Positions 14,947-46,277 of a stretch of 64,000 nt of DNA are shown piece by piece (position 1 is the first letter of the stretch; each line of letters opens with the position of its first letter). The stretch covers positions 992,001 through 1,056,000 of the forward strand of contig NZ_OY780933.1 of assembly GCF_963676065.1 (NCBI RefSeq), read 5' to 3'. The notes beneath the pieces were generated by a model. The model worked only from the letters and a program-made list of their open reading frames with translations, was not told where the DNA came from and did not search any database. This DNA is from Maridesulfovibrio sp. (GTDB lineage: Bacteria; Desulfobacterota; Desulfovibrionia; Desulfovibrionales; Desulfovibrionaceae). The position numbers were made by a program, and so were the translations under genes.

Positions 14947-15017
14947 TCATGATTTTTAAGGTTGTCAGTACTGAAGGTTATTTTTAATTATACATCATAA
15001 TAAAGGTGAAACAATAT

Positions 15018-15620
15018 ATGGATAATGAAAAGAAGAATATCAAAAAGTTCAAGGGGCTGGTCTCCCGTTCAGAGAGAGAGCAGCGCAATGGACACAAAGC
15101 GGCGGTATTTTGGTTTACCGGACTTTCCGGTTCCGGCAAATCTACAATTGCTCATGCCGTGGAAAAGGAACTTTTTGATAATCTGATGCGGGTGTATGTT
15201 TTTGACGGTGATAATGTGCGTCACGGGTTGTGTGCGGATTTAAGTTTCGCTCCAACAGCCCGAACTGAGAATATCCGCCGTATTTCAGAGGTTGCGAAAC
15301 TTTTTGTTGAGAACAGCACTATTTGTATGTGTGCTTTCATTTCCCCCCTGCGAAGTGACCGTCAGGGGGCTCGTGATATTGTTGGGGATGCTGATTTTTA
15401 TGAGATTTATATTACTTGCCCTCTTGAGGTCTGCGAGGAACGTGATGTTAAGGGATATTATAAAATGGCCCGTGAAGGTAAAATTAAGAATTATACAGGA
15501 ATTTCAGCACCGTATGAAACTCCTGAAAAGCCAGACCTAATTGTCGAAACGGACCGGGAATCACTGGAAGAATCTGTGGAGAAGGTAAAGAAATTTATTT
15601 TGGAAAAAGTGGAAATTTAA
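15018..15620 (+). CDS. cysC: Adenylylsulfate (APS) kinase
   Basis: A 200-residue cytoplasmic kinase that phosphorylates APS to PAPS. The P-loop is GLSGSGKST (about residues 34-42). The DGDNVRHGLCADLSF stretch and the FISPLRSDRQGARDIVG segment are typical of CysC substrate binding. In a sulfate reducer APS is the substrate of dissimilatory reduction, so PAPS made here would serve sulfotransferases; two are encoded in this window (35858 and 58089). The ATG at 15018 follows AAAGGTG; an in-frame GTG at 15006 lies inside that ribosome binding site and is less likely. It ends at a strong bidirectional terminator shared with the convergent KAS III-like gene. Confidence 0.92.
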   Translation: MDNEKKNIKKFKGLVSRSEREQRNGHKAAVFWFTGLSGSGKSTIAHAVEKELFDNLMRVYVFDGDNVRHGLCADLSFAPTARTENIRRISEVAKLFVENSTICMCAFISPLRSDRQGARDIVGDADFYEIYITCPLEVCEERDVKGYYKMAREGKIKNYTGISAPYETPEKPDLIVETDRESLEESVEKVKKFILEKVEI

Positions 15621-15640: not shown

Positions 15641-15689
15641 AAATAAAAGAGCTCTGCGGATATTGAATTCGCAGAGCTCTTTTATTTAA
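15641..15689. terminator. Bidirectional terminator between cysC and the KAS III-like gene
   Basis: AAATAAAAGAGCTCTGCG (15641-15658) pairs perfectly with CGCAGAGCTCTTTTATTT (15670-15687), an 18-bp stem with an 11-base loop, with A/T runs at both ends so it works in both directions. The right arm overlaps the stop codon of the minus-strand gene. Confidence 0.9.
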
Positions 15690-16660
15690 TAGTCAAAAAT
15701 AGCTCCGGACCAACTAAGTCCGATTCCGAATCCGAAAAGCATTATTTTGTCACCACGATGTATTCTTCCGCTATTTTCAGCCCGCTTAAGTGCGATGGGG
15801 ATGGTGGAAGAAGTAGTGTTCCCCACCTCATAAAGATCGATAAGCATTTTTTCCTCAGGAATATTCAGTTTGGAAGCAAGGGATTCAAGAACCTTGTTGC
15901 TGGCTTGATGGAAGACAAAAAGGTCAATCCCGTCCATTCCGGTTCCTGCCTGCTCAGCCAGCTTTCGTATTTCACTGGGAATTGTTTTGACAGTAAATTG
16001 GAACACCTTGAAACCGTCCATTTGCAGGTCCGGTTTTGCTATGGGAGAGTTCGCCTGTTGCCCGGTAACAACACCGATTCCTGAATTCAGGCAGCGTATA
16101 GAATCGCTGCGGCTGCCATCAGTTCCGAAAAGAAATGTGGGGGGAACTGTCGGTTTATCGATAATTGTCGCAGCTGATCCGTCAGAAAAAATAAGGAATG
16201 ATGTCTTGTTTTCAGGGTCAATTGCCTTAGAGTAATTGTCCACGGTTACAAGCAGTACCCGATTTGAAATTCCGGCAGCCATATAACCGTAAGCAATGGA
16301 AAGGCCGTAACAGTATCCGCTACATCCCAGACTGATATCAAAGCATTTAGTGGATGTTGGAAGTCCCAGTTCGTGTTGCAGGCAGGCAGAGACATGTGGA
16401 AGCAGATTGTCAGGAGTCTGGGTACAGACGATCAGTGTGTCGGGGAGTTCCTGCTCTGATAAATCTTTCAATACTCCGGAGGCTGCTTTTTGGGCGAGCT
16501 GTAATGTGGTTTCGTCCGGCGCGGAATGGTGCAGGTAACGCACTCCCGTTTTGGGTAGAGAGTTACGTACATGCCAGTGCGGTTTGGACTTATCCAGTTC
16601 ATGACAGTCTATAATGTGCTCTGGGAGATGGTATTCTATATTGTTAATAAAGTTGTTCAT
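15686..16660 (-). CDS. 3-oxoacyl-ACP synthase III (FabH-like), orphan paralogue
   Basis: A 324-residue thiolase-fold condensing enzyme. The KAS III catalytic triad is complete: Cys113 in LGCSGYCYG, His251 in VFHQASNK and Asn281 in EVGNTTSS. The C-terminal signature FGFGIGLSWSGA is present. KAS III enzymes join an acyl-CoA starter to malonyl-ACP. The gene is not beside fab genes, but it is a close paralogue of the gene at 45306, sharing motifs such as ELPDTLIVCTQTPD, PTSTKCFDI, LNIPEEKM and FGFGIGLSWSGA. The paralogue sits beside an acyl carrier protein in the glycan operon, so this copy may also act in surface-sugar acylation and not in bulk fatty acid synthesis. Confidence 0.85.
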   Translation of the reverse strand: MNNFINNIEYHLPEHIIDCHELDKSKPHWHVRNSLPKTGVRYLHHSAPDETTLQLAQKAASGVLKDLSEQELPDTLIVCTQTPDNLLPHVSACLQHELGLPTSTKCFDISLGCSGYCYGLSIAYGYMAAGISNRVLLVTVDNYSKAIDPENKTSFLIFSDGSAATIIDKPTVPPTFLFGTDGSRSDSIRCLNSGIGVVTGQQANSPIAKPDLQMDGFKVFQFTVKTIPSEIRKLAEQAGTGMDGIDLFVFHQASNKVLESLASKLNIPEEKMLIDLYEVGNTTSSTIPIALKRAENSGRIHRGDKIMLFGFGIGLSWSGAIFDY

Positions 16661-17719: not shown

Positions 17720-18766
17720 GTGAGCGTCTTTATAGTGAAAGATATTTCGTCCATTAATCCCAAAAAAATTCTTGTATGCCAGCTGCGTCAGATTGGGGAT
17801 GTTGTGCTAGCTACGCCTTCTGTTTCTCTGCTCCATCGTAGATTCCCTAATGCTGAGATCCATATCCTTACAGAAGATAAATGCACACAGGTTTTTGATA
17901 ATAATCCTGCTGTAAGCCGTGTCTGGGCCATCAAGAAAAAAGAATTGCGTAACCCAATTAAGGCCTTAAAATTTTATTGGAAAGTCGGGCGCTCCGGGTA
18001 TGATCTTATTGTCGATTTTCAGCAACTGCCACGCTGCCGCTGGGTTGTGCTGTTCAGTGACGCGCCTGTCAAACTTGCCGAAATGCCACCGTGGTATAAC
18101 CGCTGGTTGTATACCAACTGGCCTGAGTACATTCCCGGAGGTTATGCCGCCATGTACAAAGCTGGCGTTCTCAAACCGTTGGGAATTGAATGGAATCACG
18201 AACGTCCTATCATTTTCATTTCGGATGAAGAGCGTAATGAAGCAAAAGCCTGCCTTGGATCGCTGGGAGTAACAGAGGACGAGCCTTTGATCACCATTGA
18301 TGCCTCCCACAGAAGGCATACCCGCAAATGGCCGGAGGAGCATTACGGAAAATTGATCCGTTTAATTTCGGAGCAACGACCGCAGTTCAAATTTTTTCTG
18401 CTTTACGGTCCCGGTGAAAAAGACGTCGCATTAAATGTAATGAATGAATCCGGTGTTGCCGATAAGTGCGTGATACTGGAGAAACCAGGCTCATTACGAC
18501 TGATGGCTGCCTTGATTGAAAGGGCGGTTCTTCATATCGGCAATTGTTCCGCGCCGAGGCATTTTGCTGTTGCAGTGGGTACGCAGAGTATCGTTATGCC
18601 CGGTTCTTCCGGAAGCTGGGTTTTTCCTTCTCCCGAGCATGAGGAAGTGGTCGCCGGGCTTGAGTGCGAACCTTGCGGTAAAGAGGTCTGTGCCCGCAGT
18701 GATCTTGCCTGTTTGACCAAGGTTATGCCGGAAGATGTGCTTTTAAGGGTTTTAGACAGAGTGTAA
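17720..18766 (+). CDS. Glycosyltransferase family 9 (heptosyltransferase-like)
   Basis: A 348-residue GT-B enzyme of the ADP-heptose:LPS heptosyltransferase family. The N-terminal ILVCQLRQIGDVVLATPSV is the family signature (about 19-37), followed by FPNAEIHILTE. The C-terminal donor site has the ISNCSAPRHFAVAVG-like stretch (HIGNCSAPRHFAVAVGT) and a Cys-containing tail CEPCGKEVC. It probably adds a heptose or related sugar to a core oligosaccharide. The start GTG at 17720 has no clear Shine-Dalgarno; a second GTG at 17735 is possible. It is the first gene of the plus-strand run that continues with the intramembrane protease, gspD, gspE, OST and glycoprotein. Confidence 0.8.
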   Translation: MSVFIVKDISSINPKKILVCQLRQIGDVVLATPSVSLLHRRFPNAEIHILTEDKCTQVFDNNPAVSRVWAIKKKELRNPIKALKFYWKVGRSGYDLIVDFQQLPRCRWVVLFSDAPVKLAEMPPWYNRWLYTNWPEYIPGGYAAMYKAGVLKPLGIEWNHERPIIFISDEERNEAKACLGSLGVTEDEPLITIDASHRRHTRKWPEEHYGKLIRLISEQRPQFKFFLLYGPGEKDVALNVMNESGVADKCVILEKPGSLRLMAALIERAVLHIGNCSAPRHFAVAVGTQSIVMPGSSGSWVFPSPEHEEVVAGLECEPCGKEVCARSDLACLTKVMPEDVLLRVLDRV

Positions 18767-18843
18767 AGCTGCTACAAGAGGTTGTCTCTTTGTTGGAGAC
18801 ATTTTCAAGTAGTCGGAAAAATACAGCAGGTAGAATAGAATTT

Positions 18844-19296
18844 ATGGTTTATGATTTTATCGTAAACCGAATCTTGAAAGGGATTTGGTATCAGTTCAAA
18901 TGGGGGGCTATAAGTCTTACTGACCCCATTTTTTATTTGTTCCTTTCTTTGGGCTTCTTCGGCCTTTATGTCCCGGAACCGGATATTGAGCTTTCACTGG
19001 GGATCCTTTTTTTAAAAGCTCTGTTTGAAGAGTTCTTTTTCAGGTTTTTGCTGCAGGAGGGGCTAGACCGGCTTCTAAAGTACAGGTGGAAACTTGGACC
19101 TCTCAGTCTGGCCAACTTCTTAGCATCTTTGGCTTTTTCATGTATACACTTGATCCATCAGCCTGTTAACTGGGCTTTGCTCACTTTTTTCCCCTCGCTT
19201 GCTTTCGGATATATATGGCAAAGATATCGTAGCCTCGTTTCGGTTACAATTCTCCACTTTGCCTACAACGCGTTTTTGTTTTATCAGTTCATGTAG
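18844..19296 (+). CDS. CPBP-family glutamic intramembrane protease, MrtJ/myxosortase-like
   Basis: A membrane protein of about 150 residues with four or so helices. The three CPBP motifs are all visible: EExxxR as EEFFFR at residues 62-67, FSCIH in ASLAFSCIHLIH, and HxxxN in ILHFAYNAF. Small CPBP proteases encoded beside proteins with Cys-containing C-terminal sorting tails are known in the JDVT-CTERM, Synerg-CTERM and MYXO-CTERM systems. A protein with such a tail lies 6 kb downstream in the same direction (25229-27340), so it is the likely substrate. A TTG reading from 18790 would add 18 residues without a ribosome binding site; I prefer the ATG at 18844. The substrate pairing is inference. 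Confidence 0.75.
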   Translation: MVYDFIVNRILKGIWYQFKWGAISLTDPIFYLFLSLGFFGLYVPEPDIELSLGILFLKALFEEFFFRFLLQEGLDRLLKYRWKLGPLSLANFLASLAFSCIHLIHQPVNWALLTFFPSLAFGYIWQRYRSLVSVTILHFAYNAFLFYQFM

Positions 19297-19443: not shown

Positions 19444-21462
19444 ATGGCGCTGAATATGCTGAAGAATTTTTGTAAATTTGTTGCGGTTGTGGTTTTGGTG
19501 CTGGTTCTCACGGCCCCTGTGGCTATGGCCCAGCCCGAAGGCGGCGAAGGTGTTCATGCTAATTTGGAGAGCATTTCTCTTGTAGAATTTATCAAATTCG
19601 TCGGGCGCTATACCGGTAGAAATATCGTGTTTCAAAAAGGAGCGTTGCCGAGCTCTCATGTCAGTATTTACGCTGGACAATCACTTACCGAACCTGAACT
19701 TATGGCTGTGTTTCAGCAGGTTTTGACCGGAGCTGGATTTCACGCCGTAACAAGAGATAATGTTACTTATGTTTTGCCGTTGCGCGATGCCAAATTAATT
19801 TCCCCAGATATAAAATCTACTCCTTCGAATGGTGATCAGGAAGAAATTATTACTTCTGTGTTTCAGCTTGATGGTAAAATGGATCCTGCAAAAGTACAGA
19901 CTGTCCTAGCGCAAGTGGCATCACAGATAGGTAAGGTTACTTCGGTGCCTATGGCTGATGCGGTTTTGGTTCGTGACTTACAGGGCAATGTGAATAAGAT
20001 GAAAAAGTTGCTGGCAATTCTGGGAAAAGCCGGTGCCAAGCAGGAAACTAAGTTGATTGAGCTGGAAAAGACCAGTGCTAAAACCGTTGCTGCCAAGTTG
20101 TCTTCTTTTTATAAAAAATTATCCTCTTCCGGAAAAACCGGAACGCCTCCAATAATTGAGGCCCTGGAATGGGCCAACAGTATGCTTGTTTCAGGATCAA
20201 GGGATCAGATTGAAACGATCAGTAACCTCGTTTCTAATCTTGACCGCTCTAATGATTCATATTCTAAAATGAAAATTTACCGGTTGCACAACATTGAAGC
20301 TATTGTTGCCGGTGATGTGCTACAGAGCCTTGTGTCCGGGGGAGGCATCTCTTCCACTGGAGCGTCCAAAGGAGCAGAGACAGGAACAAAGTCAAGTTCA
20401 GGTAAGGGTACTGCATCACAATCTAAATTGGGCTCCGGAGACACTGGCGATGTGCAGGTTTCTGCCGATCAGACAACTAATACTCTGATTGTTATGGCTC
20501 CAACTGATCAATTGCCTCAGATTGATAAGTTGGTAGACCAGTTGGATCAGGCACAGGATCAGGTTTATATTGAAGCACTTGTCCTCGAAACCTCACTGGA
20601 CAATTCAAAGGAATTCGGAGTTGAATGGCAGGGTGGTATTGACATGGGAGGAAGTGTAGCGACTTTGGGGTACACCAAAACTTCAAATAGTAAGTTATCT
20701 ACATATGCATCTAATCCTTCCAGTGTGCCGGGCGGTTATTCCATGGGGGTCCTGGGGGATACGATCTCCTATGCAGGAAAGAGTTTCCCCACTATAGGGG
20801 CTTTGGTCAATTTTACAAAAGGAGCTACTGACTTTAACCTTATTTCTGCTCCCCAGATCATGACGCTGGATAATGCAGAAGCAGAAATTTTTGTTGGACA
20901 GAATCGGCCTTATAAATCTGGTGAAAGTTCAACCAGCGGAGATGCTCTTGTTTCGACTTATTCTTATAAGGATGTCGGGATCAAACTCAAAATTACTCCT
21001 AGAATCAATCGCGAAGACGGATTGGTCAAGCTCAAGGTTTATCAGACATACAATACTGTTTCCGAGGCAAGCACAAACGAATTGCCAATTACTAATGATC
21101 GTACAACCGATACGACCGTCCTTCTTGCTGATGGTTCTACTATGGTCATTGGCGGTTTGATCCGCTCAGAACAGACCCGATCTGAGTCGGGAGTCCCATA
21201 TCTTTCTGATTTGCCTTTATTGGGTTGGCTTTTTAAAACCACCAGTGACAGCGGTAAAAAGAATACTCTGATGGTTTTTATCTCAGCGCGCATTATTCAA
21301 ACTACCGAACAGCTTGAAGCTTTAAGTAAGGCAAAAATGGACAAGTACCGCAAGCAGCGGAAGCGGTTTGAAACATTTATTGATCAGGAATTCAATACAT
21401 ATAAAAACGATTCTGAAGGATCAGATGCAAACAATGTTACTTCTGCCGCTTCTGACGGTTAA
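19444..21462 (+). CDS. gspD: Type II secretion system secretin GspD
   Basis: A 672-residue outer-membrane channel. A signal peptide is present (about 1-29, hydrophobic run ending APVAMA). N0/N1 domains follow (LESISLVEFIKFVGRYTGRN at about 42-61), then N2-N3 with a Ser/Gly-rich insert near 310-330. The secretin core is VYIEALVLETSLDNSKEFGV and, near the end, DGSTMVIGGLIRSEQTRSES with SGVPYLSDLPLLGWLFK. The GGAG just upstream supports the ATG. gspE starts 12 bases after its stop, then the OST. No pseudopilin or gspF, L or M gene is in the window, so it must work with components encoded elsewhere or in a reduced machine. Confidence 0.92.
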   Translation: MALNMLKNFCKFVAVVVLVLVLTAPVAMAQPEGGEGVHANLESISLVEFIKFVGRYTGRNIVFQKGALPSSHVSIYAGQSLTEPELMAVFQQVLTGAGFHAVTRDNVTYVLPLRDAKLISPDIKSTPSNGDQEEIITSVFQLDGKMDPAKVQTVLAQVASQIGKVTSVPMADAVLVRDLQGNVNKMKKLLAILGKAGAKQETKLIELEKTSAKTVAAKLSSFYKKLSSSGKTGTPPIIEALEWANSMLVSGSRDQIETISNLVSNLDRSNDSYSKMKIYRLHNIEAIVAGDVLQSLVSGGGISSTGASKGAETGTKSSSGKGTASQSKLGSGDTGDVQVSADQTTNTLIVMAPTDQLPQIDKLVDQLDQAQDQVYIEALVLETSLDNSKEFGVEWQGGIDMGGSVATLGYTKTSNSKLSTYASNPSSVPGGYSMGVLGDTISYAGKSFPTIGALVNFTKGATDFNLISAPQIMTLDNAEAEIFVGQNRPYKSGESSTSGDALVSTYSYKDVGIKLKITPRINREDGLVKLKVYQTYNTVSEASTNELPITNDRTTDTTVLLADGSTMVIGGLIRSEQTRSESGVPYLSDLPLLGWLFKTTSDSGKKNTLMVFISARIIQTTEQLEALSKAKMDKYRKQRKRFETFIDQEFNTYKNDSEGSDANNVTSAASDG

Positions 21463-21474
21463 TAGGGGTACCAA

Positions 21475-22956
21475 TTGAGTTCTTCCTATGATTTGAATCT
21501 AGTTCCGCAAAATGTTGTAGACCTTTTCCTGACCTTTCCGCAGCGGAATGAATTTATTCCTGTGGAAGTGCAGGACAAGGAAATTAAATTTCTCCTGCAG
21601 AACGAAAGCTCACTGCCTATGGCCGACTTTCTGGCCTGGAAGTTGGGCAAAAATGTTGTTTCTGAAATTGTTCCCGAGGAAGAGTTTTTTCCTTTGCTTG
21701 AACAGGCTTTGACTGTCTGGGAAGAAGAGAGTGCTATCGAGTCAGACTCTGATGAAGATGATGCCGAAGACGGGCAGGATTTGCTTGGCTGGTCTCATGA
21801 TGATGCCCCCATTGTCCGGCTGGTGAATAAAACTCTGCATCAGGCCATATCCAACGGAGCCAGTGATATTCATTTTGAAGGGCAGGGCAACGGTTTTGTT
21901 GTCCGCTACCGGCAGGACGGAGTGCTGAAAGCAGTCAAGCGTTTGGATAAAGGGCTGCAGCCAACAGTAATCGCCCGTATTAAAGTCATGGGTGAAATGG
22001 ATGTAGCCGAGAGCCGCAAACCCCAGGACGGACGTATTTTTCTTAAACTCGGGCAGAAAGAAGTTGATGTCCGTGTTTCCACAATTCCGACCATGAGCGG
22101 TGAAAAAGCCGTTCTGCGTGTTCTGGACCGTTCTAAAAATATTTTAAATCTCGAGGATCTTGGGCTTAAAGGTCCCGATCTGGAACTTTTCAGAAAGGTT
22201 CTTGCTCAGCCTCATGGCATCGTACTTGTTACCGGGCCGACCGGTTCTGGTAAAACCACAAGCCTTTATGCCGGGCTCAGTGAACTCCCACGCGACGACA
22301 AAAATATTGTCACAGTGGAAGATCCTGTGGAATATCAGCTTTCCGGGATTAATCAGGTTCAGGTCAACAAGGCCGCCGGGATGACTTTTGCAACCACCAT
22401 CCGGTCCTTCCTTAGGCAGGACCCGGATATTATTCTTGTAGGTGAGATTCGAGATCAGGAAACTGCAAGTACGGCAGTTCAAGCATCGCTTACCGGTCAC
22501 CTTGTGCTTTCTACCTTGCATACCAATGATGCTGCCACCGCCGTAACCAGAATGCTTGATATGGGCATCGAACCGTTTCTGCTGGCATCTTCCCTTTCCC
22601 TTGTGCTCGGTCAGAGACTTGTTCGTGTTAATTGTAAGCATTGCTCAAGGACGATTGATGTTTCCGAAAATACCCATAAGCTTTTCGAAGAGATCAATGA
22701 CTTGCCTGCTCAGCAGTTAGCAGGAGCCGGTTGTGAGCATTGCAACTTTACCGGATTCAGCGGTCGCCGTGGAGTTTATGAACTCATACCGGTAACAGAA
22801 GACATGCGCGGTATGATCATGGAGGTCGCCTCTTCCGACCGGATCAAGGCTTACGCGAAGGAAATGGGCCGTGAAACAATGGTTGATCACGGCGTTCGGC
22901 TGGTCAAAGAAGGTGTGACGACTCTCGAAGAAGTTATCAGGGTCACCAAGCTTTAA
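21475..22956 (+). CDS. gspE: Type II secretion ATPase GspE
   Basis: A 493-residue cytoplasmic ATPase that drives pseudopilus assembly. The N-terminal N1E-like domain (1-110) ends in an acidic stretch (ESDSDEDDAEDGQD). The RecA-like core has Walker A GPTGSGKTT (254-262), the Asp box, Walker B DPDIILVGEIRD (about 316-327), and the His box with STLHTND. The GspE-type zinc motif has Cys387, Cys390, Cys420 and Cys423. Translation begins at a TTG (21475) after AGGGGT, which gives the conserved start MSSSYDLN and a 12-base gap from gspD. The TTG may keep expression low relative to gspD. Confidence 0.93.
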   Translation: MSSSYDLNLVPQNVVDLFLTFPQRNEFIPVEVQDKEIKFLLQNESSLPMADFLAWKLGKNVVSEIVPEEEFFPLLEQALTVWEEESAIESDSDEDDAEDGQDLLGWSHDDAPIVRLVNKTLHQAISNGASDIHFEGQGNGFVVRYRQDGVLKAVKRLDKGLQPTVIARIKVMGEMDVAESRKPQDGRIFLKLGQKEVDVRVSTIPTMSGEKAVLRVLDRSKNILNLEDLGLKGPDLELFRKVLAQPHGIVLVTGPTGSGKTTSLYAGLSELPRDDKNIVTVEDPVEYQLSGINQVQVNKAAGMTFATTIRSFLRQDPDIILVGEIRDQETASTAVQASLTGHLVLSTLHTNDAATAVTRMLDMGIEPFLLASSLSLVLGQRLVRVNCKHCSRTIDVSENTHKLFEEINDLPAQQLAGAGCEHCNFTGFSGRRGVYELIPVTEDMRGMIMEVASSDRIKAYAKEMGRETMVDHGVRLVKEGVTTLEEVIRVTKL

Positions 22957-22997: not shown

Positions 22998-25112
22998 ATG
23001 AATACTCATGATGAACTGCGCAACCCAAATTGGTTTTCCGATTGGAAAACTCTTTTTTTATTTGCACTTTTTTCGTTTGTTGTTGCCTTCGGATTGCGTC
23101 TTTTGGAGTTACCCAAGTGGAATAACCAGGCTTATATGGTCAATGGTGAATTCATTATGGGTACACATGATGCTTACTATTGGCTCGCCGGAGCAAAAGG
23201 TATAGGCAGCGCTGTAGGAAAACCAATAGTTAACATCCTAAAATTAATAGGAAGTATCACTGGGTGTCAGTACGGAAATATTGCATTTTGGTTGCCTGCC
23301 GTTTTTTCCGGTTTAACTGCGGTTGCCGCTTTCGCCTGGGGTGGACTGGTTGGAGGTAACTGGGTCGGCTTATGTTCAGCTGTTTTTGCTACATCTATTC
23401 CAGCATTTTATTTCAGAACAAGGCTCTCTTATTATGATACTGATATTGTGACTCTACTTTTTCCTCTGCTTATTACATTTTTACTTGCACTGTTTATTCA
23501 AAGGGGGATTTATTCTACATGGCTTAAGCGTTCTGCTTTCTCTTATAAAAGTTCAAGGTGGGAATTGTTCTTGCCGTTGCTGGCAGGAGCAGTAGCATCG
23601 TATGGTGTATTATGGCATGCGGATATGCAGCTGTTCGCTCTGGTTTCTTTGCTGCTGGGGTCTTTTTTAGTTTTAGCGGTAGGTTCCTCAGAAAGTCGCC
23701 CTGAATTGCTGAGAGGTATGCTGATCTACGCTATTTCCGCTTTTTTCGGAGCATGGGGGATTCCCGTTGCGTTCCTGGTCTTGTTTACATTGAAGTCTCC
23801 TAAAGTTCAGGAACATAAGCTTTATAAGAATATTTTTGTTTATATTGTAGCCATCTGTGGCGTGTTCTTATTGAGTGGTGCGGGGCAGAATCTCGGTGTT
23901 ATTGTGATGAAAAAAATCGCTGTGTACCTCAAACCTACAGCAGATGTCTCACATATTCAGAACGGGCCTGTTTATCCTGGAATTGCGCAAAGTGTTATTG
24001 AGGCGCAGAATTTGAGCCTAAGTGTTTTGTTCAGCCAGATGATAGGCAACACAACTCTGGGGTGGATTTGTACTGCTTCAGTTGTATATTTTTTTGCCTC
24101 TAGACCTTATTCTATGCTGCTTTTACCTTTTGTTTTAGCAACATTTGCATCAGTTTATATAGGTGGTCGTTTCGCTATGTTTGGTGGGACAGTCTTTGGG
24201 CTTTCTTTTGCTGTTCTTTTACAAGACGTGCTGAATAAGATTTTTAAACTTGAAAAGAGTCGGTATAAAAGAGTTATTCATGCTGCGGCTGGAATAACAG
24301 TACTCGGATCTTTACTTTGTAATACGGTTCCAATGTATCGGGAATATGCGATTACCCCAATTATGAGCCAGCAGCACGTCAAAGCCCTGATTGAGGCTGG
24401 TAAGCATATGCCAAAAGACAGTACTGTTTGGACATGGTGGGATTGGGGATATGCAACTATGTATTATGCCGGCGTGAATACTTTAGCTAACGGCGGAAAT
24501 CATGCTGGAAAAGTTTTGTTTCCTCTAAGTTTGGCTTACACTACTCCTTCCTATCTGCAATCCAGCCAGATGATTAAATTCAGCGCCGCAAACAAGGGAA
24601 ACCCGTGGACTGAGTTGAATAAGCTTTCAGTTTTGCAGGCGCAGGAATTTATTAAATCTTTGGGCGTAAAGAAATATCAATTCAAAAAGGCACCTAAACA
24701 GTATCTTGTAACTTGCTGGGAGAATATAAAGCTTGCATATTGGATTATGTACTACGGAACCTGGGATCTCCGAAAAAAGGGTATTCATCCAATAGTTCAG
24801 GGGGTTAACAATGCATTCACCTTTGATGCTGAAAACGGTGTTTTTCGCCAGAATGGAAGGCCTCCCATTAAAGTTTCTGGTTATGAATATTTGAGCTCAA
24901 AGCAATCTGGAAGATCTCGTTTTGATCTTAATGCCGGTCCGAATCTTGTGTATAATGCTGATAGTAAACAGGCTTATTTGATGGACGACCTCGTCGCTAA
25001 CAGTGTAATGTTTAAGCTATTGACCGTGGGGCCTAGCGATGCGAGGTTGAACAACCATTTCCGCATCGTTTATGACGGTTTTCCCTTCATACGAATATAC
25101 GAGGTCATTTAG
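22998..25112 (+). CDS. pglB: STT3/PglB-type oligosaccharyltransferase
   Basis: A 704-residue membrane enzyme that transfers a lipid-linked glycan to asparagine in N-x-S/T sequons on the periplasmic side. About a dozen helices occupy residues 15-455, then a soluble periplasmic domain. The catalytic acidic sites are visible: GTHDAYYW near 55 and SYYDTDIV near 145. The loop EL5 motif SVIE (E335) matches PglB TIxE. WWDWGY is at 480-485, a variant of WWDYG. In C. jejuni PglB an Arg 12 residues after the TIxE Glu reads the acidic -2 residue; here the aligned residue is Gln347. This predicts a relaxed sequon. AGGTG precedes the ATG; the gene follows gspE by 41 bases. Confidence 0.92.
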   Translation: MNTHDELRNPNWFSDWKTLFLFALFSFVVAFGLRLLELPKWNNQAYMVNGEFIMGTHDAYYWLAGAKGIGSAVGKPIVNILKLIGSITGCQYGNIAFWLPAVFSGLTAVAAFAWGGLVGGNWVGLCSAVFATSIPAFYFRTRLSYYDTDIVTLLFPLLITFLLALFIQRGIYSTWLKRSAFSYKSSRWELFLPLLAGAVASYGVLWHADMQLFALVSLLLGSFLVLAVGSSESRPELLRGMLIYAISAFFGAWGIPVAFLVLFTLKSPKVQEHKLYKNIFVYIVAICGVFLLSGAGQNLGVIVMKKIAVYLKPTADVSHIQNGPVYPGIAQSVIEAQNLSLSVLFSQMIGNTTLGWICTASVVYFFASRPYSMLLLPFVLATFASVYIGGRFAMFGGTVFGLSFAVLLQDVLNKIFKLEKSRYKRVIHAAAGITVLGSLLCNTVPMYREYAITPIMSQQHVKALIEAGKHMPKDSTVWTWWDWGYATMYYAGVNTLANGGNHAGKVLFPLSLAYTTPSYLQSSQMIKFSAANKGNPWTELNKLSVLQAQEFIKSLGVKKYQFKKAPKQYLVTCWENIKLAYWIMYYGTWDLRKKGIHPIVQGVNNAFTFDAENGVFRQNGRPPIKVSGYEYLSSKQSGRSRFDLNAGPNLVYNADSKQAYLMDDLVANSVMFKLLTVGPSDARLNNHFRIVYDGFPFIRIYEVI

Positions 25113-25155
25113 TTTCGATAAATGTCTTGTCAGGTTTATTTTTTTTTTGTATTAA

Positions 25156-25199
25156 AAAAGTGATCGCTGGTGACATTGGGTTGCTAGTGGTCGCTTTTA
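25156..25199 (+). terminator. Hairpin between the OST and the glycoprotein gene
   Basis: AAAAGTGATCGCTGG can pair along its whole 15-base length with CTAGTGGTCGCTTTT, using several G-U pairs, and is followed by ATTTACC. It lies in the 116-base gap before a strong AAGGAG ribosome binding site. It may be a terminator for the OST transcript, or an attenuator separating moderate OST expression from high expression of the glycoprotein. Confidence 0.5.
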
Positions 25200-25228
25200 T
25201 TTACCTTAAGCCCTAAGGAGATCTTTTC

Positions 25229-27340
25229 ATGAAAAAGATTACAGGTCTTACAGTAATCGCGCTCATGCTTCTTTGCAGCAGTGCTTTTGCTTCAAATTCA
25301 CCGACCATGCCGTGGACATTGAACTCCACTTGGAACATGGATGGTAATGGTGTAACCAACGTAGCTGCGAATACCCCTAAATTTTTTACAGGATTTTTCG
25401 CAAACGCTTCCTACTCCAATACAGCATCAGACTTCTTGAATGCTACTTTTATGTTCATGAACTCTTCCAAGACTTACGTAATGAGTCAGGATGATTTCTC
25501 TGCCTCTACTAACCAGGGTGGTAACGCAACCGTTTGGGGGTACTTTGGTTTTTTCAACTCAACCGACGCAGCAACCATTGCTGCTAACGTAGGTTGGGTT
25601 TCCATGCAGACAAACAGCACACCCGCTTCTGCTGCTTTGGGTAACGCAACTTCTCTGAGTATCAGCGAAGGTGCATACAATAACCTGAACGGTCTCGTGA
25701 CCCTTGGTATGGTTAACGGTTCTACCGCTGGTAAAGGTAATACGCAGCTTGGTCCTATCCGCATGGCCTCCACTTCCGGCGGTGCCCTGCTCGCAGGTGT
25801 TGGACAGAACACGCCTAACCCGTCTTCTACCGCTGCCGTCGAAATAGCTACGGGTACTTCCCTGATCATGGCTTACGAAAATGGTACCTTCCAGAACACT
25901 ACTGCTGTTTGGGGGTCTAACTGGGATTACTATGCAACAGGTTATAACTACGATACCTACGTGCCCTATTATATCATTGGTCAGGTTAAACTGATTGAAG
26001 CTTATTCCGCTACTACTGGATATAATGCTAAAGCTAAATTCAAAGTATTCAGCGGTCTTGATGATTCTGTAATTCTTGATCGTTCCGACGATTGGTACAG
26101 ATATAACGCTACTGTAAGCACTACCGCTGACTATGGTCGCTTCAATCTTACCGCAGACTTCCCTCTGCTTGAAGGTGCGACTCTGAATAAAGACCGCAAC
26201 TTGGCTACTGGCTCTGTTTACAAAAATAAAGCTCAGGCCAGACACTTTGCTGTTATGATTAAGTCCGGTACCACAATGAGTTCTAATGACCTCAAAGGCC
26301 GCAGCTACAAACTGGTTTATGCTGGTTTCGGTGGTGGCGCCAAGTCTGCTCGCAACGCAACTCAGGGTATCCTCGGTTTCGGTCTTAATGACGATCTCCT
26401 CGCTAAAGGCCACGGTGGTTACGTAATCTCCGGTGCTGATGCAGCTGGAACCGTCGTTCCCACAAACCCCGATTCCTTTGAATTCGCAATTGCTGACACT
26501 AACCAGTTCGCTTCTATGACCCAGTCTAACATGACTATCAAGAACGCCGCTGGTACCCTCGTTGGTACTGCTTACTTCAAGCAGTCTGCAGAAAAAGACT
26601 ACGCTGTTGGTATCTATCAGCCTGTACGTAGTGGTGCTGCTAATGGTGCAAACCTTGTTATCATGATCCCCGACACCGCTGATATTGGTGTACCTAACTC
26701 TGCTGATCCTCAGTTTCAGCATAACGCAACTATCGAAACTGCAGCTCCTGTAGGTTTTGCATATCGCAGAAACGCAACTGTTTCTGCTTTCTCTACCAAG
26801 AAAGATATGAGAGATCAGTGGACTGCTCTGCCTTCTGATTTCACACCTATCTCCGGGCTGATCGGTTTTAACGCTACTTCTGTACGCTTAGGTGCTCAGA
26901 AGGGTGATCTTCTGTACACTGTACAGATTCCTTTCTCCGGTGTTGGTTACAAAATTGATGATCTGGCACTCTACAAAGTGTTCCCTACCGTTGCAAAGAC
27001 TGTTAAGTCTTTTCAGTATGCATCCTCTGATGACAGTGGTAAGAACGCAGAAGGTGCTTGGTGGATTTCTCAGGAAATCGGTGATGGTTACCTCGGAGTT
27101 GACTCTTACCTCTCTCCTGGAACCACTTACTACCTGAACTACGTTATTAAAGATAACGGTGAATATGACTACCGCGCTGCTGATAACAACGACATCGGTG
27201 ACCCTGTTGTCCTCGGTACCATGGATTCATCCTCCAGCTCCTCCGGTTGTGTATTCAACCCCGCAGCTGGCTTCGGTCTGGAATGGCTGCTGCTGATGCT
27301 TGCTCCCATGGTTGCTATCGTACGTAGCCGTTTTAAGTAG
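25229..27340 (+). CDS. Exported, sequon-rich surface glycoprotein with JDVT-type C-terminal sorting tail
   Basis: A 703-residue protein with a signal peptide (cleavage near SSAFA, residue 21). It has 18 N-x-S/T sequons at N32, 59, 71, 78, 99, 110, 129, 139, 163, 218, 223, 293, 306, 376, 434, 499, 515 and 548; 15 have Thr, and none has Asp/Glu at -2. The tail is a Ser run, then SGCVFNPAAGFGLEW, a hydrophobic helix and RSRFK; Cys674 is the only Cys in the mature chain. The rest is rich in Gly, Ala, Asn, Thr and Ser with no enzyme motif. A strong AAGGAG, a clean codon pattern and a perfect terminator suggest high expression. An S-layer-like role is inference. Confidence 0.85.
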   Translation: MKKITGLTVIALMLLCSSAFASNSPTMPWTLNSTWNMDGNGVTNVAANTPKFFTGFFANASYSNTASDFLNATFMFMNSSKTYVMSQDDFSASTNQGGNATVWGYFGFFNSTDAATIAANVGWVSMQTNSTPASAALGNATSLSISEGAYNNLNGLVTLGMVNGSTAGKGNTQLGPIRMASTSGGALLAGVGQNTPNPSSTAAVEIATGTSLIMAYENGTFQNTTAVWGSNWDYYATGYNYDTYVPYYIIGQVKLIEAYSATTGYNAKAKFKVFSGLDDSVILDRSDDWYRYNATVSTTADYGRFNLTADFPLLEGATLNKDRNLATGSVYKNKAQARHFAVMIKSGTTMSSNDLKGRSYKLVYAGFGGGAKSARNATQGILGFGLNDDLLAKGHGGYVISGADAAGTVVPTNPDSFEFAIADTNQFASMTQSNMTIKNAAGTLVGTAYFKQSAEKDYAVGIYQPVRSGAANGANLVIMIPDTADIGVPNSADPQFQHNATIETAAPVGFAYRRNATVSAFSTKKDMRDQWTALPSDFTPISGLIGFNATSVRLGAQKGDLLYTVQIPFSGVGYKIDDLALYKVFPTVAKTVKSFQYASSDDSGKNAEGAWWISQEIGDGYLGVDSYLSPGTTYYLNYVIKDNGEYDYRAADNNDIGDPVVLGTMDSSSSSSGCVFNPAAGFGLEWLLLMLAPMVAIVRSRFK

Positions 27341-27924: not shown

Positions 27925-28461
27925 ATGGCAATTCCAACGACAGTGGTTATTCCGGCATACAATGACGCAATGGGACTTGATTATTTGCTGTCTGACCTTT
28001 TGGCTTTTACTGAAAAAAAGGGTTTGAAGGTTATTGTAGTGAATGATTGTTCGTCTGATAATACCAATGAAGTTTTGAAAAAATACGTCAGCAGAATTAA
28101 AGTTCTTGGTAATGAGACCAATCTTGGTTTCGGCGGTGCTTTTAAACGAGGTATTTGGGCTGCTGAAACCGAGTGGGTTGCTACGTTTGATACAGATAAG
28201 CAGCATAGAATTTCCGATTTAGAATCTCTGGCTGATCAGGCTGTAGACAAAGTTGATGCCGTCATTGGTATGAGGGATAGCGACTCTCATGTCACAAAGT
28301 CACGTGTTTCAGGTAAATGGATTCTCTCAAAAGCCGCAAATTTTATCACGGGCAGGAAAATTCCAGATATAAATTGTGGATTGAGAGTTTTTCGCCGTGG
28401 TGTGCTGCTTTATATTCTACTAGCACTCTGATCTGTTTGCATTAAAGTTGCCCAGTGTGTT
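27925..28461 (+). pseudogene. Broken copy of a GT2 polyprenyl-phosphate glycosyltransferase gene
   Basis: The first 160 residues closely match the intact gene at 32927 (for example VVNDCS, NLG(F/Y)GGA, HRISDLESLA, DSHVTKSRV, AANFITGRKIPDINCGLRV). After TATAT at 28415 about 31 bases present in the intact copy are missing. This shifts the frame, so the protein stops at 28431; the old frame continues as STSTLICLH and stops at 28445. The C-terminal membrane helices are lost. The DxD-type motif is DTDKQ, whereas the intact gene has DADGQ, so the copy has also drifted at the active site. It is almost certainly non-functional. Confidence 0.85.
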
Positions 28462-32926: not shown

Positions 32927-33847
32927 ATGGCAATTTCAATGACAGTAGTTATACCGGCCTATAATGATGCTCAGGGGCTTGATTCAATGTTGTCTAGTCT
33001 TTTGGCTTGCACAGAAAGTAAGGGGTGGGAGGTAATCGTAGTTAATGATTGCTCACCTGATAATACCAATGAAATTTTGGGTAAATTTGCCGGTAGAATC
33101 AAAGTCATTGAGAATGAGGTTAATCTCGGGTACGGCGGTGCTCTCAAAAGAGGGATTCTAGCTGCTGAAACCGAGTGGGTTGCGACTGTTGATGCTGACG
33201 GTCAGCATAGAATTTCCGATTTAGAGTCCTTAGCAGGTCAGGCACATGGTAATGTCGATGCTGTTATCGGAGTTAGGGATAAAGATTCACATGTCACAAA
33301 GTCACGTGTCCCGGGGAAATTGGTTCTCTCAAAGGCAGCAAATTTCATCACTGGCCGAAAGATTCCAGATATCAATTGCGGACTGAGAGTACTGAGACGG
33401 GAAGTGATGCTGCATATCTTTTCTATTACATCAGATAAGTTTTCCTTTTCTACCAGTACGTTGATTTGCTTGCTCGCATTGAACTGTAATGTCGTTTATT
33501 CGCGCGTCGTTGTTGATGCAAGAATAGGAACAAGTGCAGTTAAACAGGTTAAGGATGGTCTTTATACCTTGATGCTAATGTTGCGTTTGATAACATTGTT
33601 TAAGCCTTTAAGAGTCTTCTTGCCTATTAGTTTGTTTCTCTTTTCTGTTGGTGCAATAAATCAGTTATATGTTTTTGTTGTTCATGGTTTGAATTTTACC
33701 ACGGCCACTGTTTTGTCTGGAATTGGCGGGTTAATAATATTTTTCATGGCATTGATTGCTGACCAGATTGCCGGGTTGCGGCGGGATATACTTTTTCAGT
33801 CTTTTAATATTAAGCGGTTGTCTTGCAATTCTACTCATAATGCATAG
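32927..33847 (+). CDS. GT2 glycosyltransferase, polyprenyl-phosphate sugar synthase type
   Basis: A 306-residue membrane-associated enzyme. The GT-A domain starts MTVVIPAYNDAQGLDSMLSS and carries the DxD motif as DAD (89-91) in VDADGQHR. The acceptor-loop segment SRVPGKLVLSKAANFITG is of the dolichol-phosphate mannose/glucose synthase kind. Two helices near the C-terminus (about 215-240 and 250-275) anchor it. It probably charges undecaprenyl phosphate with a sugar used by membrane glycosyltransferases such as that at 39672. It is the intact paralogue of the pseudogene at 27925. Only a weak GAG lies ahead of the ATG, as in the copy. Confidence 0.82.
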   Translation: MAISMTVVIPAYNDAQGLDSMLSSLLACTESKGWEVIVVNDCSPDNTNEILGKFAGRIKVIENEVNLGYGGALKRGILAAETEWVATVDADGQHRISDLESLAGQAHGNVDAVIGVRDKDSHVTKSRVPGKLVLSKAANFITGRKIPDINCGLRVLRREVMLHIFSITSDKFSFSTSTLICLLALNCNVVYSRVVVDARIGTSAVKQVKDGLYTLMLMLRLITLFKPLRVFLPISLFLFSVGAINQLYVFVVHGLNFTTATVLSGIGGLIIFFMALIADQIAGLRRDILFQSFNIKRLSCNSTHNA

Positions 33848-35857: not shown

Positions 35858-36757
35858 ATGAGTAAGCTGACCCCTGATTATATATGTATCGGAGCTGCCC
35901 GCTGTGCCACTACTTGGGTTTGGAGTCTCTTTAGTAAGTATTCAGAAGTGAGTCTAATCTGGCCTAAAGAGATTCATTTCTTCAATGATAACTTTGACCG
36001 TGGGATGAAATGGTATTCATCTCATTTTAAGGATCCCAATAGATTTATCAGAGTTGAAGTTGATGGTGTTTATTTTGCCGATGCAGCAGCAGCTTCCTCT
36101 AATATGAAAAAGACATGCCCTAATGTAAATGTATTTGCTATCTTAAGGAATCCTTTTGAAAGAGCTATAGATCATCTCGTCTTTAATTATTATAGGGATG
36201 CCCAAACAACAGATATCTCAATTGAGAACCTGCGTTCTCTAGCAACAAAGCACAAAGACGATAAATATTTAAAGGGCAGTTGCTACGGTTCATTGTTGCT
36301 TGAGTATAAAAAAAGTCTTTCTGCTGAGCAGGTGGCTTTATTTAATTTTGAAGATTTGCAAAACAGTCCTCGTGAATTTGCTGAAAATCTGCTTCGCTAT
36401 GTTGGAGCTGGTTCAGAATATGAAATTACGGATGATATGTTAACTCCTTCCAATTCAGCCCGGCCTATCCGCTATAAATTTCTTTACAAACTTCTTCGGC
36501 AAGTAAAATTGTTTAGTGACAAGAATGCTTATTGTGCTGCTTTAATAAGTTTCTTTACCAAAAAAATCGGTGCATCATTGATCGATAAGCTGCTTGGGCC
36601 GCAAGATAAGAAGGATGAATATCCATTTTCAATAAATGAAGCATTCGTTGAGCTGTTTGGAAGTGATGCTGTTCAGTTAATTGAAAATGAGATGGAAATT
36701 TTAGAGCGTGAATTTGATTTCCCTGTTCCAGAAAATTGGAAATCTCTAACCAGCTAA
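35858..36757 (+). CDS. PAPS-dependent sulfotransferase
   Basis: A 299-residue cytoplasmic enzyme of the carbohydrate/heparan-type sulfotransferase family. The 5'-phosphosulfate loop is CIGAARCATTWVWSLF (10-25), and the 3'-phosphate motif is in VFAILRNPFERAIDHLVFNY (about 92-111), where Arg and Ser/Asp normally contact PAPS. The segment KEIHFFNDNFDRGMKWY is typical of sugar sulfotransferases. The donor PAPS could come from CysC at 15018. The gene is between a methyltransferase and an aminotransferase, so it probably sulfates the glycan of this island. Confidence 0.82.
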   Translation: MSKLTPDYICIGAARCATTWVWSLFSKYSEVSLIWPKEIHFFNDNFDRGMKWYSSHFKDPNRFIRVEVDGVYFADAAAASSNMKKTCPNVNVFAILRNPFERAIDHLVFNYYRDAQTTDISIENLRSLATKHKDDKYLKGSCYGSLLLEYKKSLSAEQVALFNFEDLQNSPREFAENLLRYVGAGSEYEITDDMLTPSNSARPIRYKFLYKLLRQVKLFSDKNAYCAALISFFTKKIGASLIDKLLGPQDKKDEYPFSINEAFVELFGSDAVQLIENEMEILEREFDFPVPENWKSLTS

Positions 36758-41601: not shown

Positions 41602-43022
41602 TTAGTTTGAAAAACTTAAGTTTGGTCGATCAAAGCCCAAATTCGAAGTAAACCAGTGAACGGAGCTCTTTTTGAAGGCAAGAAGTTGAAAAATATCAGC
41701 AAATAAACGTGTTGCGCTCAGGATGAGCGCCATTTTCTTCATGTTTTGGCAAGCAGCGCAGAGAAGACTTTGTTCTTGAGCCTTCGAGAGGCCGCGCATT
41801 CGGGCGTAACGATGTCCGTGAAGCTCTTTTGCATCGGCAAAACTACGCTCAACAGTTTCTTTTCGACGTTTGTAAAGCTTTTTACCCCGAGGGCTGAGAC
41901 GGTTTTGCGTCATTTGTTCTTTTGCATCTTCCCAAACATGGCGAGTCAACGTCTTTACACATTTCTGATTTGATGTACATTTTGAAAGTAATTCACAGTT
42001 TTTACAGAGAGTTGAATCAGAAGAATATTGTCTAAAACCTTCGCGAGCTGTTGTCTTATAATGAAGTTTGTGTCCTACCGGACAGACATAACAATCTGCT
42101 TCCGGGTTGTACTTGTACAACCTTTTTGCCATAAATCCCTTACGTTTATTTGGTCTGCGATAACTTATTGCACCAATAATTTTTCTGTCCACCAGGCCTT
42201 TACAGATGTGTGATGTAAAATACCCAGTATCAAGTCCAACTTCTTTTACATCAAAATCAAATTGCCGATCTAATCTGCCGAGATAAGGCCCACTGTCATG
42301 GGCTGCCAACTGTCAGTTATTATGTTGAATTTACCGTCTACAGTACGATGATCAAGATAGTAGAACCCTTTTGGTTTTCCTTCGCGGTACATGAATCCGC
42401 ACTCAGGATCAGTGGTACTTTCTTTGATTCTTTTGACTGGAGTCGAGGATGGTTGTGGCTTTAAAGGCTTCTTTCCGTGGCTTCTTCGGTCTTCCTCCAC
42501 GGCTTCATCGAGCTCTGACAGATATGATTTAGTATTGCCGCGTACTATCTTATCGATAAATTTTCGTTTGTTGGCATTAGCTTTGAGATGCGTTGAGTCT
42601 GTATAAAGTGTTTTGCCTTCGACCATTTTACGTTTCATAGCTTGCAAAACTATGTTGTCAAATATGTCTTGAGCAACTGAAGTTCCGTTAAAACGCCTTT
42701 TTCTGTTTTGACTTATAGTAGATGCATCTGGAATTTTGTCTTTGAGACCAAAACCAAGAAACCATCGATAAGCCATATTGACTTGTATTTCTTTGACAAG
42801 TTGTCTCTCACTGCGAATTCCAAATATATACCCAATAAATAACATCTTAAAAAGAACAACTGGGTCAATTGCTGGACGACCCTTGTTCTCACAGTAAAGA
42901 TGCTTGGTCTTCTCTCGAATGAATGAAAAGTCGATAAACTTATTTTTTTTTCGAAGTAAATGGTTTTCAGGAACCAGCTCTTCAATTGTTACCAACTCAA
43001 CAGTGACTTGCTTTTTGATCAG
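41602..43022 (-). pseudogene. Frameshifted IS1182-family transposase
   Basis: Two minus-strand frames make up one transposase. The N-terminal part (down to 42270) has [17 protein letters not shown] and ends ...[15 protein letters not shown]. The C-terminal part (42309-41602) resumes with [20 protein letters not shown] and includes RRKETVERSFADAKELHGHRY, the DDE-domain end. Between Asp (complement 42312-42314) and His (42298-42300) only 11 bases remain, where the family usually has about eight residues, so a short deletion has shifted the frame. Upstream the frame continues as [10 protein letters not shown] without an ATG (CTG at 43022), suggesting the start codon is also mutated. Confidence 0.85.
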
Positions 43023-45305: not shown

Positions 45306-46277
45306 CTAATAGTCAAACACTGCACCGCTCCAGCTCAGACCAATGCCGAAGCCGAAGATCATTATCTTCTGTCCTTTCTGCAGCCGTCCTTTCTCCGTCG
45401 CTCTTTTTATAGCAATAGGGATAGAGGATGAAGTCGTATTGCCTACTTCTTCAAGATCGATGACCATTTTCTCTTCTGGAATGTTCAGCTTTTTACCGAT
45501 TGACTCCAATACAAAACGGCTGGCCTGATGAAATACGAAAAGATCGATATCATCAAGTTCAAGATCGGCCTTTTCAAGAAGCTTGCTTATTTCATCTGGA
45601 ATTGTGCCAAGAGTAAAAAGGAAAACTCCATAACCGTCCATCTCAAACCGGGGAGCAGGTATTGGGTCTCCAGCTTTATTTTCGGTAACAACACTAATTC
45701 CTGAATTCTTGCATTTGATGGCCTGATTTCTGGACCCATCGGTTCCAAAGTGGAATACAGGTTTTTTTTCCGGTTTATCGATGATGCATGCGCTGGCGCC
45801 GTCTGAAAAAAGGACGAAGCATTTCGGATCATCAGGGCTGATTATTTTTGAATAGTTATCCGCCGTGACAAGAAGTACCCGCTTGGAAAGTCCGCTCTCA
45901 AGATAACTGTATGCAGTTGCGAGACTATAGCCGAAGCCGCTGCAGCCTAGATTGATGTCAAAGCATTTTGTAGACGTAGGCAGTTTCAATCTATCCTGCA
46001 GCATGGCCGAACAGTGCGGGAGCATCATGTCCGGGGTCTGGGTGCAGACGATGAGAGTGTCCGGGAGTTCTTCAAGACCTTCCAGAGCCTTACGTGCAGC
46101 CTTCTCCGCAATATCAAGCGTGCTTTCGTCTTTTGCCGCATGGTGGAGCAGGCGTACACCGGTCTTAGATAATTTGTCAGCAATTCCCCAGTCCGGTTTA
46201 TCTTTATCGAGTTTAAGGCAGTCGATAGTCTGTTCCGGCAGGTAGTATTCAACTCTCTTGATGAAATCAGTCATCAA
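45306..46277 (-). CDS. KAS III-like condensing enzyme of the glycan operon
   Basis: A 323-residue thiolase-fold protein. The KAS III triad is complete: Cys112 in LGCSGFGYS, His250 in VFHQASRF and Asn280 in EVGNTTSSS. It overlaps the acyl carrier protein gene by 11 bases, and an SDR of ketoreductase type lies upstream. KAS III joins acetyl-CoA or a similar starter to malonyl-ACP, giving acetoacetyl-ACP; the SDR could reduce it to 3-hydroxybutyryl-ACP. Its closest relative in the window is the orphan at 15686. The setting in a pseudaminic acid operon suggests a sugar-acylation role. Confidence 0.85.
   Translation of the reverse strand: MMTDFIKRVEYYLPEQTIDCLKLDKDKPDWGIADKLSKTGVRLLHHAAKDESTLDIAEKAARKALEGLEELPDTLIVCTQTPDMMLPHCSAMLQDRLKLPTSTKCFDINLGCSGFGYSLATAYSYLESGLSKRVLLVTADNYSKIISPDDPKCFVLFSDGASACIIDKPEKKPVFHFGTDGSRNQAIKCKNSGISVVTENKAGDPIPAPRFEMDGYGVFLFTLGTIPDEISKLLEKADLELDDIDLFVFHQASRFVLESIGKKLNIPEEKMVIDLEEVGNTTSSSIPIAIKRATEKGRLQKGQKIMIFGFGIGLSWSGAVFDY

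Follow-up and report, generated by a model that had tools for sequence, protein, structure and literature searches.

A probable oligosaccharyltransferase–substrate pair with a readable acceptor rule and variable alleles in Maridesulfovibrio

To our knowledge, the natural substrates of bacterial oligosaccharyltransferases (OSTs) outside Campylobacter are hardly known. In haloarchaea, N-glycosylation by AglB is coupled to C-terminal tag processing, by archaeosortase A, of an abundant surface protein, the S-layer glycoprotein. Here we describe a locus of Maridesulfovibrio sp. in which the gene for an STT3/PglB-type OST is directly followed by one for a tagged protein rich in N-x-S/T sequons, the two products forming a probable natural enzyme–substrate pair that varies between alleles and whose sequence rule can be read at +1 and +2. 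The locus lies in a window of 64,000 bases (992001–1056000 of a 4.23-Mb single-contig genome, contig NZ_OY780933.1); positions below are those of the window and its genes are on the + strand. The closest enzymes with assay data are the PglBs of Desulfovibrio gigas, D. desulfuricans and D. vulgaris (Ollis et al. 2015; PMC4894442), likewise single-subunit bacterial OSTs of related bacteria, which are relaxed at the −2 position of the sequon, as the earlier note on this DNA had said. The D. gigas PglB keeps the arginine (R377) found at R331 of Campylobacter lari PglB, yet it is the most relaxed enzyme tested, tolerating nearly any −2 residue; the D. vulgaris (Y381) and D. desulfuricans (S358) enzymes are without it and also relaxed. 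In the parts of that paper available to us, these OSTs are assayed on foreign acceptors, and neither a sequon-dense neighbor nor a tag protease is described. For the sorting of tagged proteins, the comparison is Myxococcus xanthus, where experiments indicate that the MYXO-CTERM tag is cut by MrtX and the protein delivered by the type II secretion system (T2SS) (PMC11980579, available in part).

The OST gene (22998–25112) matches PF21436 at 77 bits (cut-off 23) and PF02516 at 41.6 bits (cut-off 24.5). Residues D58, D149, E335, W480, W481 and D482 are invariant across 39 rows, with the WWD motif and the catalytic Glu kept; E335 sits within QSVIE, in agreement with its earlier assignment to an SVIE motif. 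The AlphaFold2 model of the enzyme (pLDDT, predicted local distance difference test, 90.5) has C. lari PglB (3rce) as its best structural match, with Z 37.3, rmsd (root-mean-square deviation) 3.3 and 636 aligned residues. The predicted fold, the WWD motif and the catalytic Glu of the SVIE/TIME motif are thus shared with C. lari and C. jejuni PglB. In contrast, identity in the structural alignment is ~16%, the score against the Campylobacter-type PglB equivalog NF050801 is 80.4 bits, far under its cut-off of 1300, and no Campylobacter-like pgl cluster was recognized around the gene. The Arg at R331, which in Campylobacter-type PglB recognizes the acid at −2, is also missing. We collected 47 OST sequences, 42 of them distinct, and in a 43-row MAFFT alignment of these with C. 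lari PglB the R331 column is occupied by Gln347 (codon 24036–24038), as the earlier note had read it by eye; a profile alignment gives the same residue in an ungapped stretch. A single pairwise phmmer alignment is offset by one, placing Met348 there, and neither residue is Arg. The number needs correcting, as R331 belongs to C. lari and the C. jejuni residue is R328 (PMC4894442, in the part available). With this OST as query, a second copy was not found in its own genome; a marginal further STT3 match, 24.5 bits over 39 positions, lies in the genome (53678–53797 there). The OST is a member of an ordinary enzyme family in an unusual and informative setting.

The sequon-rich protein (25229–27340) is a predicted surface protein and predicted OST substrate. 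Of 16 other genomes in the genus, 14 carry an orthologue, and wherever the protein is present (15 genomes, the window included) its gene comes directly after that of the OST. A signal peptide is predicted at about residues 1–21 (read by eye), and all 18 sequons, from N32 to N548, are held by the stretch 25322–26878. Shuffled sequences give 9.1 sequons on average (p 0.0008). The excess is concentrated in N-x-T, with Thr at +2 in 15 of the 18 sequons against 4.5 expected, a count reached in 0 of 5000 shuffles. Across the 15 orthologues, sequons run at ~2 times and N-x-T at ~3 times expectation, and the excess over shuffles holds in each of them (p 0.000–0.020; N-x-T p ≤ 0.003). As an exported background we took 159 exported-like open reading frames (ORFs), defined by a crude signal-peptide rule in an 800-kb sample (~19%) of the same genome. 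These were unenriched, with an observed/expected ratio of 0.94 in the case of sequons and 1.00 in that of N-x-T, and none equals the neighbor protein in N-x-T density or excess. The codon bias of its gene is strong, matched by 8 of 331 sampled genes, which suggests high expression.

The sequons are also conserved in a manner that points to selection. Sequon Asn residues are retained in 8.2 of 14 orthologues on average, compared with 3.4 of 14 for other Asn, and three sites (N110, N434 and N499) are common to 15/15 orthologues. In the 28 sequon columns, Ser or Thr occupies +2 in 262 of 280 rows with the Asn, but in only 29 of 113 rows without it, while Ser and Thr exchange for one another at +2 in 15 of these columns. 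Control triplets on Asp, Gly, Ala, Lys and Val keep Ser/Thr at +2 in 58–71%. Position +1 is similarly restricted. Ala, Gly or Ser is found there in 15 of the 18 sequons and, pooled over the 15 orthologues, in 247/323 sequons versus 126/467 other Asn; the exported sample has 58/257. Read from these alignments, the real sequence rule of the locus is Ala/Gly/Ser at +1 plus Thr at +2, not the residue at −2.

Upstream of the OST gene lies a conserved row whose members, together with the tag of the sequon-rich protein, had gone unnoticed in the earlier note. It begins with a heptosyltransferase-like glycosyltransferase of family GT9 (17720–18766; PF01075, 49.1 bits), whose position is kept in sister genomes. 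Next is a glutamic intramembrane protease of the MrtJ type (CPBP family; 18790–19296; NF033192, 82.1 bits, cut-off 75), the predicted tag-processing enzyme, in whose translation the motifs EEFFFR and HFAYN can be read by eye. The T2SS secretin GspD (19444–21462; TIGR02517, 422.8 bits, above the cut-off of 351; PF00263) and the ATPase GspE follow. GspE (21475–22956; PF00437, 460.6 bits) is assigned by best model, its TIGR02533 score of 564.3 bits being below the cut-off of 630. GspF-type genes are located elsewhere in the same genome. Homologues of gspD and gspE, one further gene and then an OST gene also occur in this order in two genomes outside the genus, G038 and G039, so the link between OST and T2SS genes extends beyond the genus. 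The tag itself (27230–27337) consists of a Ser run, Gly-Cys (Cys674), a hydrophobic helix and a basic tail. It is strongly conserved in a 13-row alignment, where the Cys is invariant and mean column identity 81%; this alignment and the model helix at 678–701 identify it as a Cys-containing tripartite sorting tag.

Taken together, we consider it likely that the OST N-glycosylates the downstream surface protein, which is then processed at its tag by MrtJ and delivered by the T2SS. The protein, presumably abundant, would be exported by Sec and stay anchored to the inner membrane through its C-terminal tag during glycosylation at N-x-T/S, where sites with Ala/Gly/Ser at +1 would be favored independent of the −2 residue. 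MrtJ would then cleave at or near the tag Cys, probably after lipidation of this Cys, and the T2SS, represented by gspD and gspE upstream, would carry the protein to the outer surface. Computation covers the order and families of the genes, the enrichment of sequons and the selection on them, and the tag; that the protein is in fact glycosylated, lipidated, cleaved, carried by the T2SS, located at the surface and abundant is what we infer. The likeness to the haloarchaeal S-layer system lies in the coupling of N-glycosylation to tag processing, whereas the tag and protease here are unrelated, the envelope there is archaeal, and we do not claim a surface lattice. With the M. xanthus system (PMC11980579, in the part available) the locus shares a Cys-containing C-terminal tag, a CPBP protease and, as predicted here, T2SS surface delivery. 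It differs in its MrtJ-type protease, in a tag under the JDVT-CTERM cut-off and in having an OST in the same row. In the mostly open-access literature searched, no paper came up that places an OST among T2SS genes or treats N-glycosylation together with JDVT-type tags.

Several observations weigh against a dedicated, tag-sorted pair. Two of 17 genomes of the genus keep the OST without the protein. In one (G010; L100:6544–10224), the OST is apart from the gspD/gspE block and stands before a different tagged protein of 1226 aa, which has no sequon excess (13 versus 12.3 expected); in the other (G001), it is beside MrtJ with no tagged neighbor. In the sister genus (G039), the sequon-rich protein is not adjacent to the OST. 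The tag alone scores 13.1 bits against JDVT-CTERM (NF033191), below the cut-off of 27, and is thus not classed as JDVT-CTERM. That cut-off is passed by two matches in a sister genome (G007), both of which terminate proteins that have this C-terminal domain. The tag profile retrieves two other proteins in this genome, neither of them sequon-rich, and a third tagged-looking protein with a similar C-terminal domain has no sequon excess, indicating that the tag does not imply glycosylation and that both are separable. The exported background covers 19% of the genome by its crude rule. The OST could instead be a general periplasmic N-glycosylation enzyme, with the neighbor only its most heavily modified client. 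The D. gigas periplasmic cytochrome HmcA, which carries an N-glycan at TANGT (PMC4894442, in the part available), fits such a role, as do the two genomes that keep the enzyme without the protein. The exported background, however, is enriched neither in sequons and N-x-T nor in Ala/Gly/Ser at +1, although a general enzyme might leave no such trace. We regard this alternative as credible but less than even in probability.

The earlier note had based the pairing on specificity: loss of the Arg at R331 would be matched by a substrate free of acids at −2. A recount bears out its figures, with 15 of the 18 sequons using Thr and all 18 non-acidic at −2 (in order, T F F F G F Q L M Y F R R A Q Q R G). 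However, the protein holds only 7.5% Asp+Glu, and because of this the absence is not significant (probability of zero acids in 18 sequons, 0.24). A matched specificity draws some support from the genus as a whole. None of its 17 OSTs has Arg or Lys in the R331 column (Asn 11, Asp 3, Gln 1, Ser 1, Thr 1), compared with Arg in 18 of 25 OSTs outside it (Tyr 3; Ala, Gln, Gly and Lys 1 each), and over the 15 orthologues acids at −2 occur in 13/323 sequons versus 41/467 other Asn (Fisher p 0.0096, rows not independent). The pooled 4.0% compares with 7.2% expected from composition and 8.8% for the other Asn. Yet acids are also depleted at −4 (4.0%), −3 (4.0%), −1 (6.2%) and most of all at +1 (0.9%), and therefore −2 is not singled out. 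An acid at −2 is seen in 3 of the 28 sequon columns (those held by at least 5 genomes), and one sequon site conserved in relatives has Asp at −2 in 8/8 rows.

Comparison across enzymes leads to the same result. In G039, the one OST detected has Arg at the R331 column, and the orthologous tagged protein has 25 sequons versus 10.1 expected, with an acid at −2 in 1/25. G038 has one Arg-type and one Ala-type OST; near the Arg-type enzyme, whose gene stands behind gspD, gspE and one further gene, are two untagged, secreted, sequon-rich proteins (L113:10245–13949, − strand) with an acid at −2 in 1/12 and 1/20 sequons. Where the column holds Gln (G042), the count is 0/17. Substrates thus look alike with or without the Arg, and the relaxed D. 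gigas enzyme has R377 (PMC4894442, in the part available). Arg loss may permit non-acidic sites, but Arg presence does not forbid them. We therefore find the proposed matching improbable and set it aside as support for the pairing, given the chance-level absence, the unspecific depletion and the Arg-type cases of G039 and G038. The enzyme–substrate pair itself retains its support from synteny, sequon enrichment, conservation and the unenriched exported background.

The structure of the sequon-rich protein was also modeled. The model (pLDDT 68) is mostly strand and loop, with the helix at 678–701. No fold match went beyond the chance range (best Foldseek E 5.8e-5 at TM-score 0.14; best Z 5.0). 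A TbpB/fHbp-like fold was considered and not used, its weak rows being in that range, and no fold, that of an S-layer protein included, matched above Z 5.0. Small residues plus Asn and Thr fit turns and edges, and the predicted strand and loop would suit N-[AGS]-T motifs that are an unglycosylated structural feature of a beta-rich surface protein, but this is very unlikely, as Ser and Thr swap at +2 while the Asn is kept, the +2 Ser/Thr is lost with the Asn, and the OST gene adjoins the protein in 15/15 genomes.

The probable pair is also strikingly variable among close relatives. Over 15 genomes, amino-acid identity averages 0.90 in GspE and 0.80 in MrtJ, but 0.52 in the OST and 0.42 in the protein. 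Allowing for GspE and MrtJ, OST and protein identities covary with a partial r of 0.39 (permutation p 0.008, 15 genomes), which supersedes a value of 0.87 from 8 genomes. Two genomes, G004 and G005, are 99% identical in GspE and 98% in MrtJ, but 64% in the OST and 41% in the protein. Their DNA identity stays near 0.9 for ~500 bases past gspE and then drops within the OST gene; it recovers to 0.94 over the final 100 bases of the protein gene and is 0.55 beyond. These last 100 bases are 0.92–0.98 identical in 6/6 pairs examined. Judged from these sequences, variation between conserved neighbors looks like allelic exchange; strong local selection is also possible. OST and protein need not move together, since G008 and G014 are similar in the OST (78%) and divergent in the protein (34%). 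Identity at fourfold sites is 0.69 in the tag, 0.51 in the rest of the protein and 0.41 in GspE, and this synonymous-site conservation of the tag could be due to recombination or codon bias. Tentatively, the OST and a dedicated tag-anchored surface glycoprotein might form a glycotype cassette exchanged by recombination, bounded on one side by the conserved T2SS block, together with roughly the initial quarter of the OST, and on the other by the conserved tag. Coat protein and OST would then vary among close relatives like coat antigens, perhaps under phage or grazer pressure; we hold this to be possible but doubtful.

Other genes in the window were noted alongside the locus. An APS kinase (15006–15620) and a sulfotransferase-like gene (35858–36757) are within the same glycan region and suggest sulfated surface sugars. 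A GT2 glycosyltransferase gene of 168 aa (27925–28431) resembles a truncated copy of a 306-aa GT2 (32927–33847) and, with its DADGQ motif changed to DTDKQ, is probably a remnant. Two genes are ketoacyl-ACP-synthase-like (15686–16660 and 45306–46277), and a relative of the second is near the locus in G015. An overlapping ORF pair at 41602–42995 resembles, by eye, one frameshift-split transposase.

The locus thus offers a defined, if still probable, natural pair in 15 natural variants, each protein carrying ~20 sites. Evolution thereby reveals the acceptor rule of an OST from outside Campylobacter: a small residue at +1 followed by Thr, rather than a preference at −2. The locus also ties N-glycosylation in bacteria to type II secretion and to sorting by a C-terminal tag, subjects handled separately in the available parts of PMC4894442 and PMC11980579.

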